A stretch of 64,000 nucleotides of DNA from Polyangiaceae bacterium (GTDB lineage: Bacteria; Myxococcota_A; Polyangia; Polyangiales; Polyangiaceae): the NCBI GenBank assembly GCA_020846005.1, contig JADLEQ010000085.1, positions 1-64,000 of the forward strand, in the 5' to 3' direction. Below the pieces are notes generated by a model. It ran no database searches, was not told the origin of the DNA, and saw only the letters and a list, made by a program, of their open reading frames with translations. Each line of letters opens with the position of its first letter. The first letter of the stretch is position 1. Both the position numbers and the translations under genes were made by a program. Shown here piece after piece: positions 20,985 through 26,029 of this stretch.

Positions 20985-21872
20985 ATGAGCGACCCCGGCC
21001 CGAGCCTCCGCTGGACCCGCCCGCCCTCGGCGGCCGCCTACATGCTGAGGGCGTTCTGGCCGGGGCGCCGCGAGCGGACCCTCCACCCGCGCCTGGCGCT
21101 CGCGTGGGCGGGCGCACGTTGGAGTGAGGAGGACCTCGCCGCGTTCGAGGCGCTGACGAGCTTGTCCGACACCACCGGGCTCGGGCTGCTCGCGCCGCAC
21201 GTGCTCGGCTTTCGCCTCACCATGGCGCTCCTCACCCGCCCCGAGATGCCGGTCCCCATCTGGGGGATCCTGCAGACGCGGAACCACCTGGTCGAGCTCT
21301 GCCCGGTCGCCCGCGACGCCGCCCTCGATCTCGACGCGCGGGTGAGCGCAGGGCGCGTCGTCGACAAGGGCGCCGAGCTCGACGTGCTGACCACGGCCCG
21401 CGTGGACGGAGCCGTGGTGTGGCAGAGCCTGGTGACGTTCTTCACGCGGGGGAGGTGGGGCGCCGCCGAGGCGCCGTCGCCCCTCGCGGCGCCGCCGCAG
21501 GTGCGCGCCGAGCCGAGCGCCACCTGGCGCCTGGAGGACGCCGGCCACGCGCTGGTCGGGCGCCTCACCGGCGACCACAACGGCCTGCACTACTGGGACG
21601 CCTACGCGCGGAGGTTCGGCTTCCCGCGCGCGTTCTACCACCCGCCGCGCGTGCTCGCCGAGTGCCTGGCGCGGCTCCCGGCGCCGCCGCCGTCGGGGCC
21701 CCGGCGCTTGGACGTCTGGCTGCGGGGCCCGGTGCCGCACGGGGCGGAGGTCCGGCTCGGAGTCGAGCGGGCGGGGGCGGGCGCGGCCTTCACGCTGCAC
21801 GCCGCCGACGCGCGCCCCTGCCTGGTGGGGCGGCTCGGCCCGGCGGGCGCCAGCGAGGCCGTCCTCGGCTAG
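20985..21872 (+). CDS. MaoC-like double hot-dog protein (acyl dehydratase family)
   Basis: 295 aa. The C-terminal half contains the MaoC/hydratase pattern: GRLTGDHNGLHYWDAYARRF then FPRAFYHP, which corresponds to the Asp and His active-site region (D-x-N-x-x-H) of (R)-enoyl-CoA hydratases. The N-terminal half (residues about 15-140) is probably a second hot-dog fold without catalytic residues, as in double-domain MaoC proteins. It would hydrate or dehydrate acyl-CoA or acyl-carrier substrates. It is alone under a palindromic operator, with a well-placed AGGAG six bases before the start. Confidence 0.75.
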   Translation: MSDPGPSLRWTRPPSAAAYMLRAFWPGRRERTLHPRLALAWAGARWSEEDLAAFEALTSLSDTTGLGLLAPHVLGFRLTMALLTRPEMPVPIWGILQTRNHLVELCPVARDAALDLDARVSAGRVVDKGAELDVLTTARVDGAVVWQSLVTFFTRGRWGAAEAPSPLAAPPQVRAEPSATWRLEDAGHALVGRLTGDHNGLHYWDAYARRFGFPRAFYHPPRVLAECLARLPAPPPSGPRRLDVWLRGPVPHGAEVRLGVERAGAGAAFTLHAADARPCLVGRLGPAGASEAVLG

Positions 21873-21982: not shown

Positions 21983-23239
21983 GTGCTGACGCCCGCGCTC
22001 GTCCGCGCGCGGCGGCGCAAGGGCGAGCTGCGCCTCGCCGAGCTCGACCCGGACGAGCGTCGCCGGGCGCTGGAGCTCGCGGGCGACATCCTGGAGACCG
22101 CGCGCGGGCACGTGGGGCTCACCCGGGGGGAGCTCACGGAGGCGTGGCGTGCGCTGCCGGTGCCCGCCCAGGATCGGATCCTGGCGCTCGGGCTGGTGAA
22201 GCTGGCCGAGGACGCCTGCGAGATCGACGCGGGTGAGGGCGCGCCTCCCGTCGAGCTGCGCCGCGCGGTGTTCGGGCGCGCCGCCGAGGCGCGCCGCCGA
22301 GGCGCGCTGGATCGCGGGCGTGTCCTCGCCGAGGTCGCCGTCGAGGTGGGGCTCTCCCCCGAGGCGCTCGAGCGCGGCCTCTTCTCCGATCTGGAGTCCG
22401 AGCACGTCGTGCGACGCGCTCCCGCGCTGGGCGCGGCCGCGCTCGTCGAGCGCTGGGAGGCCGGGCAGCTCCAGGGAGCGCTCCTCCGCTCCACGCGTCT
22501 CACCGCCACCGTGCGGTGCCGGAGCCCGCTCGGGTATCGAGCGCTGTTCCGCGCGCTCAAGTTCCATCGCCTGCTGTTTCGTATCGGGCGCGCGCCGGAC
22601 GGGGCTTACGTCCTCGAGATCGAGGGTCCGTTCGCGCTGTTCGAGTCCGTGACTCGGTACGGGCTCCAGCTCGCGAACGTCGTCCCCGCGCTCCAGGCGT
22701 GCGACGAGGTCGAGCTGGTCGCCGATCTGCGCTGGGGGCCGGCGCGCGAGCCGTGTCGCCTCACCTGGCGCGGCGGGACGTCCGTGGCGCCCGCCGGCTC
22801 CCGCGCGGCGGAGACCGGCGATCCGTTCGCCGGGCTGACGGACGACGCCGCCGCGCTCGCCCGCGACGTGCTGGCCGTCGGGGGCCCGTGGGTCGCCGCG
22901 CCGTCCGAGGCCATCCTGGAGCTGCCGGGCGTCGGGCTGTGCGTACCCGACTTCGAGCTCCAGCGGGCGGACGCGCCGGCGCCGGTCCACGTCGAGGTGC
23001 TCGGCTTTTGGAGCCGAGAGGCCGTCTGGCGCCGCATCGAGCTGGTCGAGCGTGGGCTCGCGGCGCCCATCGTGTTCGTCGTCTCGAGCCGCCTGCGCGT
23101 GAGCGAGGAGAACCTGCCCGAGGAGCTGCCCGGCGCGCTCTACGTCCACAAGGGGGCGCCCCGCGCCCGCCGGCTCCTCGAGGCGGCGGAGCGCGTGGTC
23201 GGCGCGCGCGCGCGCGGGGCGCGGGGGCGACGCGGCTGA
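21983..23239 (+). CDS. DUF790 / Bax1-family nuclease
   Basis: 418 aa, GTG start (VLTPALVRARRRKGEL). Matches the DUF790 family, whose archaeal member Bax1 is the structure-specific nuclease partner of the XPB helicase. Seen here: the N-terminal L-T-P-x-L-V-R start, a helical middle with LFSDLESEHVV and YRALFRALKFHRLLF (about residues 133-200), FALFESVTRYGLQLANVVP, and a PD-(D/E)xK-like core with CVPDFELQ and HVEVLGFWSRE near residues 317-345, the likely metal-binding acidic residues. Bax1 usually sits beside an XPB gene; here the neighbours are a MaoC-like gene and speD, and no helicase is in the window. Confidence 0.82.
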   Translation: MLTPALVRARRRKGELRLAELDPDERRRALELAGDILETARGHVGLTRGELTEAWRALPVPAQDRILALGLVKLAEDACEIDAGEGAPPVELRRAVFGRAAEARRRGALDRGRVLAEVAVEVGLSPEALERGLFSDLESEHVVRRAPALGAAALVERWEAGQLQGALLRSTRLTATVRCRSPLGYRALFRALKFHRLLFRIGRAPDGAYVLEIEGPFALFESVTRYGLQLANVVPALQACDEVELVADLRWGPAREPCRLTWRGGTSVAPAGSRAAETGDPFAGLTDDAAALARDVLAVGGPWVAAPSEAILELPGVGLCVPDFELQRADAPAPVHVEVLGFWSREAVWRRIELVERGLAAPIVFVVSSRLRVSEENLPEELPGALYVHKGAPRARRLLEAAERVVGARARGARGRRG

Positions 23240-23322: not shown

Positions 23323-23697
23323 GTGGACACCCGCGCTCGTCACGTGCTCGTCGACCTCTGGGGCTGCGATCCGGCGGTGCTGGACGACGTCGAGGAGCTC
23401 CGGGCGGTGATGCGCGCGGCCGTCGTCGCGGCCGGCTCGCGGGCGGTGGCCGAGACCACCCACCGGTACGTCCCCCAGGGAGTCAGCGTCCTCGTGGCGA
23501 TCGAGGAGTCGCACATGAGCCTGCACACGTGGCCCGAGGCGGCCTACGCCGCCGCCGATTTCTACACCTGCGGGAGCGCCACGCCGGAGCGGGCCGTCGA
23601 GGCGCTCCGCGAGGGGGTCCGCGCCGAGCGCCTCGAGGTGCTCACCGTGGAGCGGGGGCTCGGGCCGCCCGCGTCGCTCCGTGTCCGCGCACCGTGA
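23323..23697 (+). CDS. speD: S-adenosylmethionine decarboxylase proenzyme
   Basis: 124 aa, the short prokaryotic class 1B enzyme that makes decarboxylated SAM for spermidine synthesis. The proenzyme cuts itself in EESHMSLHTWPE before Ser63, which becomes the pyruvoyl group; the catalytic Cys in FYTCG (near residue 83) and His in HMSLHTW are present. GTG 23323 is the start that gives the family-standard N-terminus (RARHVLVDLWGCDP). No spermidine synthase gene is adjacent. Confidence 0.93.
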   Translation: MDTRARHVLVDLWGCDPAVLDDVEELRAVMRAAVVAAGSRAVAETTHRYVPQGVSVLVAIEESHMSLHTWPEAAYAAADFYTCGSATPERAVEALREGVRAERLEVLTVERGLGPPASLRVRAP

Positions 23698-23884: not shown

Positions 23885-24961
23885 ATGGCGAGCCAGAACT
23901 CTGGTGCGAGCAGCCCGTTCGAAGCGGAGGCGTACCTCCAGCAGCTCCTCAAGAAGGCCATCGCGGCCGGCGCGAGGGACGTCCACCTGAAGGTCGGGCA
24001 GCCGCCCGGCGCGCGGGTGCGCGGCGAGATGGTCTACTTCCGGGTGGACCGGCTGCGGCCGGAGGACACCGAGGCCGTCGCGCGCCACGTGATCCGGGAT
24101 CCGGGCGTGCGGGACGCCCTCCCCGCGCTCCGCGAGCACGACTGCGCGTACTCAGCGCCCGAGATCGGGCGGTTTCGCGTGAACGTGTACCGCCAGCGCG
24201 GCTCCATCGCGGTGGTGATGCGGGTGATCCCGGCTCGGATCCCCACCTTCGAGCAGCTCGGCGCGCCGGCGGTGTGCGCGGATCTCGCCCAGAAGGATCG
24301 CGGGCTCGTGCTGTGTGTCGGCGCCGCGGGCAACGGCAAGAGCAGCACGCTCGCCGCCATGATCGGGCACATGAACGCGACGCTGTCTCGCCACATCGTG
24401 ACCATCGAGGACCCGATCGAGTTCCTCCACGACGACGATCGGTCGTCCGTCAGCCAGCGCGAGATCGGCCACGACACGACCAGCTTCGCCAGCGCGCTGC
24501 GCTCGGCGCTTCGCCAGGATCCCGATGTCATCCAGGTCGGCGAGATCCGCGACGCGGAGACGATGCAGATCGCGCTCAAGGCGGCGGAGACCGGCCACCT
24601 CGTGCTGTCGACGCTCCACACCCCGGACGTGGGGCGCACGGTGAACCGCATGCTCGCGCTCGCCGAAGGGCAGACCGACGATCTCCGCGAGCGGATCGCG
24701 GACGCCCTCCAGGGGATCGTCGCGCAGCGGCTCCTGCCGCGCGCGGACGGCGCCGGCATGGCGCTCGCCGCCGAGGTCCTCGTGGCGACGGGCTCGGTCC
24801 GCGAGTCGATCCGGCGACCGGTCGGGAACCCGCCGCTCAAGGAGCTCATGGAGTCCGGCCAGGGGATCTACGGGATGCAGACCTTCGAGCAGCACCTGCG
24901 GCAGCTCGTCCGCGACGGCATCCTGGACCGCGAGGTCGCCAAGCAGGCGATGGGGTTCTGA
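23885..24961 (+). CDS. PilT/PilU-type pilus retraction ATPase
   Basis: 358 aa, GspE/PilT family. N-terminal PAS-like part (ARDVHLKVGQPPGARVRG), Walker A GAAGNGKSST, Asp box, Walker B-like VIQVGEIRD and His box TGHLVLSTLHT. Hexamers power type IV pilus retraction. Length fits PilT/PilU, but the end (DREVAKQAMGF) lacks the AIRNLIRE motif of PilT, so it may be a PilU-like or accessory paralogue. The gene stands alone, followed by a hairpin and bioB. Confidence 0.92.
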   Translation: MASQNSGASSPFEAEAYLQQLLKKAIAAGARDVHLKVGQPPGARVRGEMVYFRVDRLRPEDTEAVARHVIRDPGVRDALPALREHDCAYSAPEIGRFRVNVYRQRGSIAVVMRVIPARIPTFEQLGAPAVCADLAQKDRGLVLCVGAAGNGKSSTLAAMIGHMNATLSRHIVTIEDPIEFLHDDDRSSVSQREIGHDTTSFASALRSALRQDPDVIQVGEIRDAETMQIALKAAETGHLVLSTLHTPDVGRTVNRMLALAEGQTDDLRERIADALQGIVAQRLLPRADGAGMALAAEVLVATGSVRESIRRPVGNPPLKELMESGQGIYGMQTFEQHLRQLVRDGILDREVAKQAMGF

Positions 24962-25060: not shown

Positions 25061-26029
25061 ATGTCGAAGCTCCGCCACGACTGGACGCTCGCCGAGGCCC
25101 GCGCGCTCCACGACCTCCCGCTGTTCGAGCTGCTCGATCGTGCGCGCGAGGTGCATCGCGCCCACCACCCGACGGGGGAGGTGCAGCTCTGCACGCTGCT
25201 GAGCGTCAAGACGGGCGGCTGCCCGGAGGATTGCGCGTACTGCCCGCAGTCGTCGCACTACGACGCCGGCGTCGAGGGCAGCGGCCTCCTGCCGGTCGAG
25301 GAGGTCGTCCTCGCGGCGCGCCGCGCCAAGGACGGCGGTGCGACGCGGTTCTGCATGGGCGCCGCCTGGCGAGAGCCCAAGGAGGGCCCGGCGTTCGACC
25401 GCGTGCTGCAGATGATCCGTGAGGTGAAGGCGCTCGGCATCGAGACGTGCGTGACCCTCGGGATGCTCACCGACGACCAGGTGCGCCGCCTCGCGGAGGC
25501 GGGGCTGGACGCCTACAACCACAACCTCGACACCTCGCGCGAGCACTACCGCTCGATCATCACGACGCGCGGGTACGACGATCGCCTGGCGACGCTCCGG
25601 CGGGTGCGCGCCGCGGGGATCACGGTCTGCGCGGGCGGCATCATCGGGATGGGCGAGTCGATCGACGATCGCATGAAGCTGCTGCTGGAGCTGGCGCGGC
25701 TCGAGCCGCACCCGGAGAGCGTGCCGGTCAACGCGCTCGTGCGCGTCCCAGGGACGCCGGCCGCCGAGTTCCCCCCGCTCGATCCGCTGGAGCTCGTCCG
25801 CATGATCGCGCTCGCGCGGCTCCTCATGCCGAGCTCGAAGGTCCGGTTGAGCGCCGGCCGCTCCGACCTGCCGCGCGAGGCGCAGCTCCTCTGCCTCTAC
25901 GCCGGGGCGAACAGCATCTTCTGGGGTGATCGGCTCCTGACGACCCCCAACCCTCCGCCGGACGTGGACGGAGAGCTGCTGCGCCTCGCGGGGCTGCGCC
26001 CGCTGGCGCCAGCGTCCGCGGCGGAGTGA
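25061..26029 (+). CDS. bioB: Biotin synthase
   Basis: 322 aa radical SAM enzyme that inserts sulfur into dethiobiotin. The cluster motif is [10 protein letters not shown] (Cys near residues 52, 56, 59), followed by [16 protein letters not shown] and the C-terminal [22 protein letters not shown] that includes the conserved Arg for the [2Fe-2S] cluster. Full length. No other bio gene is in the window, so biotin genes are scattered in this genome. Confidence 0.96.

Follow-up and report, generated by a model that had tools for sequence, protein, structure and literature searches.

The window analysed here, 64,000 nucleotides of contig JADLEQ010000085.1 (positions 1 to 64,000, forward strand) from the Polyangiaceae bacterium assembly GCA_020846005.1, carries an apparently intact gene for a Bax1-type (DUF790) nuclease, and very probably its partner is the single XPB helicase that the same genome encodes on another contig, the ancestral operon having been broken and the helicase-nuclease still being formed in trans. 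The first-pass annotation had correctly named the nuclease and noted that no helicase adjoins it, and it left three possibilities: a helicase elsewhere in the genome, a nuclease that works alone, or one that works with another helicase. The helicase gene is indeed elsewhere, whereas the latter two ideas are not supported; a single archaeal-type XPB is retained. That annotation also held that an XPB elsewhere forming a complex with this protein would count against an unpaired nuclease; the gene is present, and we infer the complex on the grounds of co-occurrence, of synteny and of a single interface pair that coevolves, and infer its substrate and pathway as well.

The open reading frame is a full-length match to PF05626 (DUF790; E 1.2e-65, profile positions 2–385 of 387), and the Bax1 PDB chains 8gy8, 6p66 and 6p4f are among its sequence matches. 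An AlphaFold2 model made from 71 related sequences has a mean pLDDT of 93.3, and the only PDB chains that Foldseek retrieves with it at E ≤ 0.001 are Bax1; a second structural aligner places the model on Bax1 chains with VIA Z scores of 20–23 over 350–373 residues. The predicted model contains the N-terminal helix bundles, the Cas2-like domain and the nuclease fold. The protein scores 95 and 60 bits against the NCBIfam Bax1 equivalog models, below their cut-off of 500 bits, but judging by their names these models represent two archaeal lineages, and the shortfall concerns equivalog naming rather than family membership. The source genome, a 99%-complete draft in 119 contigs, has no other DUF790 gene. 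The coordinates of the gene, its key codons and its neighbors are given in Table 1.

Table 1. The Bax1 gene of the window, its domain and residue positions, and flanking genes
Feature	Position in window	Strand	Basis or remark
HtdX-like hotdog dehydratase gene, now where XPB stands in relatives	20985..21872	+	PDB HtdX, E 1e-17
Bax1/DUF790 nuclease gene	21983..23239	+	GTG start, 418 aa
Bax1 N-terminal domain, residues 1–168	21983..22486	+	Hairpin, two three-helix bundles, long helix; model secondary structure and AfBax1 alignment
D136 codon (AfBax1 Asp133), XPB interface	22388..22390	+	Alignment to AfBax1
E138 codon (AfBax1 Glu135), strongest coupling to XPB 369	22394..22396	+	Alignment and coupling analysis
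D288 codon, motif I acid (AfBax1 E275)	22844..22846	+	Placed via bacterial multiple alignments, not direct AfBax1 alignment
D323 codon, catalytic acid (AfBax1 D305)	22949..22951	+	HMMER alignment
E338 codon, catalytic acid (AfBax1 E318)	22994..22996	+	HMMER alignment
speD (S-adenosylmethionine decarboxylase), retained ancestral downstream side	23323..23697	+	PF02675, E 4e-35; TIGR03330
PilT-like ATPase gene (presumed name), retained ancestral downstream neighbor	23885..24961	+	Synteny with relatives
bioB-like gene (presumed name), retained ancestral downstream neighbor	25061..26029	+	Synteny with relatives

All three nuclease-domain acids, the equivalents of E275 (PMC7293015), D305 and E318 of Archaeoglobus fulgidus Bax1 (AfBax1), are present in the window protein; the first-pass annotation had named their absence on alignment as refuting its reading. 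D323 and E338 are invariant across 71 aligned sequences and nearly so across 209 Bax1 proteins, and 182 of the 209 have E or D at position 288, the window protein having the rarer D. On its sequence and predicted fold, then, we take the gene to be a genuine, intact Bax1-type DNA repair nuclease and an orthologue of archaeal Bax1. It is highly improbable that the gene is decaying after a rearrangement: at 222 bits it scores towards the lower end of the family against the profile, and motif I reads D, but the frame is open over its full length, every acid is in place, including the two invariant ones, and its end branch of 0.68 is close to the median of 0.55. The XPB end branch is 0.82 (median 0.49), and relaxed selection was considered and rejected, both branches being somewhat long and not outliers. 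In other genomes we note a Bax1 (L365, on G112:C23) whose catalytic columns hold T, C and E, which may be an inactive nuclease and has its XPB about 8 kb away, and a 250-aa frame (L075, G022:C9:68850-69134) that matches only the DUF790 nuclease domain (positions 292–386) in a genome with a normal XPB-Bax1 pair elsewhere.

A genome-wide profile search found one XPB gene in the source genome, at 7205–8596 of contig C68 (G000:C68:7205-8596; NF045503 match), flanked by acyl-CoA dehydrogenase and arylsulfotransferase genes, one on each side. Its product aligns with A. fulgidus XPB at 349 bits over residues 28–457, with the thumb region ungapped, and matches PF18458 (XPB_DRD, the damage recognition domain; E 6e-15) and PF16203, so that the DRD, the two helicase domains and the thumb are all accounted for. 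Because it has the DRD and the thumb, its sequence marks it as an XPB of the archaeal type and not of the mycobacterial type, which is without both (PMC3353954). The genome search proposed in the first-pass annotation, for an XPB with a ThM/RED motif, thus succeeded as regards the thumb but not the RED motif, which reads R222-A223-D224 here. Residues 222–224 follow the pattern R-x-D in the 209 bacterial pairs, with R and D kept in about 95% and the middle E mostly replaced by A, T, P, S or Q; the RED motif has been described as absolutely conserved among XPB proteins.

We considered whether C68 is contamination and rejected this. Its GC content is 0.737 against 0.734–0.758, and its tetranucleotide usage correlates with that of the window at r = 0.963, where window chunks correlate among themselves at 0.964–0.982 and the sister genome at 0.831. 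C68 thus fits the window as well as pieces of the window do, and a contaminant origin is unlikely because its composition matches the window while that of the sister genome does not.

Archaeal XPB and Bax1 genes are known to lie in close proximity, and the same holds across the Myxococcota, where we surveyed DUF790 neighborhoods as the first-pass annotation had advised. Among 282 genomes drawn evenly from the phylum, 149 have both genes, three have DUF790 alone, three have XPB alone and 127 have neither, each gene occurring in 152 genomes (Fisher p 1.3e-72, a value that ignores phylogeny and is descriptive only). XPB lies directly upstream on the same strand of 133 of the 176 DUF790 genes, the two frames overlapping by a median of 8 nt. 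Seven further DUF790 genes adjoin XPB in other orientations, for 140 adjacent genes. When 80 named loci, including those of Sorangium cellulosum, Minicystis rosea and Polyangium, were retrieved by XPB, Bax1 was directly downstream on the same strand in 76. Adjacency is thus the rule in this phylum, and the novelty that the first-pass annotation implied, of a bacterial Bax1 unpaired with XPB, does not hold. Adjacency is usual and not required for membership, and in the source genome the two genes lie on different contigs.

Some of these genomes carry further copies or damaged frames. A second, diverged XPB-Bax1 pair is present in many related genomes (G004:C33, G010:C281, G014:C205, G017:C255, G024:C71, G026:C117, G031:C66, G036:C1 at 5.94 Mb and G038:C142), with an XPB 40–44% identical to that of the source genome; these pairs are mostly adjacent, those of G024 being about 10 kb apart. 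Three XPB frames (G085:C95, G132:C310 and G186:C100) contain one in-frame stop, TAG or TGA, and are sequence errors or pseudogenes.

Comparison with relatives points to how the two genes were parted. The window order is Bax1-speD-tRNA-Phe-pilT-like-bioB; a sister genome of the same genus (G001) has XPB-Bax1-speD, about 6 kb, and then pilT-like-bioB, and three other loci (G022, G023 and L150) have XPB-Bax1-pilT-like-bioB. The pilT-like gene lies downstream of XPB-Bax1 in L065, L072, L076, L114 and L150, and bioB follows it in all of these except L114; the names of the PilT-like and bioB-like genes are presumed from sequence. Upstream, the first-pass annotation had rightly placed speD on one side of Bax1 and had called the gene on the other side MaoC-like; Pfam MaoC matches it only below threshold, and it is better described as an HtdX-like hotdog dehydratase. 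No homologue of it or of the other new upstream genes was found near XPB-Bax1 in 94 related loci. The window thus keeps the ancestral downstream side of Bax1 and has lost only the XPB side, and this pattern, with the downstream side intact and the XPB side alone replaced, argues for a rearrangement. A search for an XPB remnant upstream of Bax1 and for a Bax1 remnant downstream of the C68 XPB saw neither.

Might XPB truly stand directly upstream of Bax1, with two misjoins having parted them in the assembly? The genome is a draft, the two breakpoints coincide with the ends of genes, the pair is linked in nearly all close relatives, and a second genome with the same breakpoint was not seen. Bax1, however, lies 21.9 kb into a 212-kb contig and XPB at 7.2–8.6 kb of the 13.4-kb C68, both well inside their contigs; no repeat above chance length is common to the window and C68 junctions, and five other families show the same separation. 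We consider a misassembly at the split unlikely. It is also very improbable that Bax1 took a different helicase as its partner, as could in principle follow once linkage was lost: nothing found supports this, the neighbors characterized (S9 peptidase, SpeD, HtdX-like, pilT-like and bioB) include no helicase, and the genome keeps a single matching XPB.

Separation has in fact recurred, in about six families (f1, f6, f30, f38, f42 and f43, among others), and in each of the 15 separated pairs inspected the XPB and Bax1 frames are long and intact. This recurrence of natural operon splits suggests that linkage is dispensable for the XPB-Bax1 partnership.

Further evidence for the partnership comes from coevolution. 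Mean-field coupling analysis of 208 linked pairs plus the window pair, with nine residue classes and an effective number of 161, gave Bax1 138 and XPB 369 as the top inter-protein coupling, with a score of 1.207 against 0.795 for the next best. The best coupling in 15 shuffled pairings was 0.777, although shuffles break phylogeny along with pairing and are a lenient control. More weight attaches to the wide lead of this pair over about 174,000 other column pairs, which share its phylogeny, and to its coincidence with a residue that experiments have placed at the interface: AfBax1 Glu135 is at the XPB interface, and in the double mutant D133A/E135A the Kd for XPB is 157 nM instead of 15 nM, a tenfold weakening (PMC7293015). 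XPB 369 is located in HD2, and in archaeal structures it is HD2 that the second Bax1 helix bundle contacts. In linked pairs, R or K at Bax1 138 occurs mostly with Q369 and P138 with H, R, E or D, and P138 with Q369 is nearly absent (1 of 43 linked pairs). Separated genomes obey the same rule, with P/H in G160, P/R in G016 and P/N in G064, while nine more combine Q with R or K. The window pair, E138 with Q369, is found in five linked pairs against 9.5 expected by chance; this combination is permitted and not favored, so that by itself it is not informative. The second-ranked coupling, Bax1 4 with XPB 462, lies in the gene overlap, and we discarded it as an artefact that the overlap of the two frames creates. 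The top couplings were not enriched in the block of the Bax1 N-terminal domain with XPB HD2 and thumb (5, 13, 25 and 67 of the top 20, 50, 100 and 300, against 6.8, 16.5, 28.7 and 77 in shuffles), and we therefore use only the single outstanding pair.

AfBax1 Asp133 and Glu135 have been proposed to form a second, N-terminal nuclease site (PMC7293015), a question on which these data have a bearing. The first of these positions, D136 in the window protein, is D in all 209 bacterial Bax1 proteins. At the second, 177 of them carry R, K or P, and 15, the window protein among them, carry E. Because it is mostly R, K or P and is coupled to XPB, the bacterial sequences suggest that this position contacts XPB rather than being a conserved part of a catalytic site in these proteins.

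The same coupling bears on the idea that Bax1 acts alone as a structure-specific nuclease while XPB has another role. The A. fulgidus and Thermoplasma acidophilum enzymes are active by themselves (PMC7293015), and the operon is broken in the source genome, but position 138 sits at the XPB interface and only six of the 155 Myxococcota genomes with either gene have one without the other (in three of the six, G299, G033 and G278, the hit is 8 bases or less from a contig end). We regard such independent action as quite improbable.

Thus we favor XPB and Bax1 as partners that the ancestor encoded in one operon of two overlapping genes. In the source lineage a rearrangement would have cut this operon precisely where the two genes meet, so that speD, pilT-like and bioB stayed beside Bax1 while XPB came to lie elsewhere, and the two proteins most likely still assemble in trans. 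By analogy with archaeal complexes, in which the N-terminal Bax1 domain is the XPB-binding part, the N-terminal domain of the window protein would bind XPB, its Cas2-like domain would position forked DNA, and its PD-(D/E)XK-type (VRR-Nuc-like) domain would be the nuclease. XPB may then use its thumb to open DNA where a lesion or junction occurs, and Bax1 may cut one arm at the double/single-strand junction.

XPB is central to nucleotide excision repair in eukaryotes. The source genome has UvrA and UvrB genes, including a normal UvrA on C40, and XPB-Bax1 would probably supply an accessory, junction-specific repair incision alongside UvrABC. Its presence beside UvrA and UvrB would make the role of the complex testable by gene deletion. 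We also observed a 1954-aa frame (G000:C2:42008-47299) with two UvrA copies head to tail, in addition to the C40 UvrA.

We give about even credence to a wider proposal, that archaeal-type XPB-Bax1 is a widespread bacterial repair machine, found in roughly half of the sampled Myxococcota, which forms in trans wherever its operon breaks and in which the AfBax1 Glu135 position is, in bacteria, an XPB contact instead of part of a second nuclease site. DUF790 was listed in Archaea and Cyanobacteria in 2005 (PMC1189080); in 2012 no bacterial XPB-Bax1 complex was known and the thumb was considered unique to a subset of archaea (PMC3353954); a 2014 review described Bax1 as archaea-specific (PMC4080772), and as late as 2026 a review presents the complex as archaeal (PMC13024598). 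A phylum-wide operon of the archaeal type is therefore of moderate interest; bacterial homologues may have been mentioned earlier, in the original JBC Bax1 papers.

The closest known systems are the archaeal ones. The window protein shares with the Bax1 proteins of A. fulgidus (6p66), Sulfurisphaera tokodaii (6p4f, 6p4o and 6p4w) and Pyrococcus furiosus (8gy8) their domain order, fold, nuclease acids and XPB-interface Asp (D136, AfBax1 D133). It differs in being bacterial and only about 20% identical, and the AfBax1 E135 position, although E in the window protein, holds R, K or P in the majority of the bacterial proteins. The C68 XPB has the DRD, HD1, HD2 and thumb of archaeal XPB (AfXPB, 2fwr; StXPBII, 5tnu), but has R-A-D for RED and is encoded apart from Bax1. 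With XPB of the mycobacterial and eukaryotic type it shares the SF2 XPB helicase core, whereas those proteins have an unrelated N-terminal domain and are without the thumb (PMC3353954).
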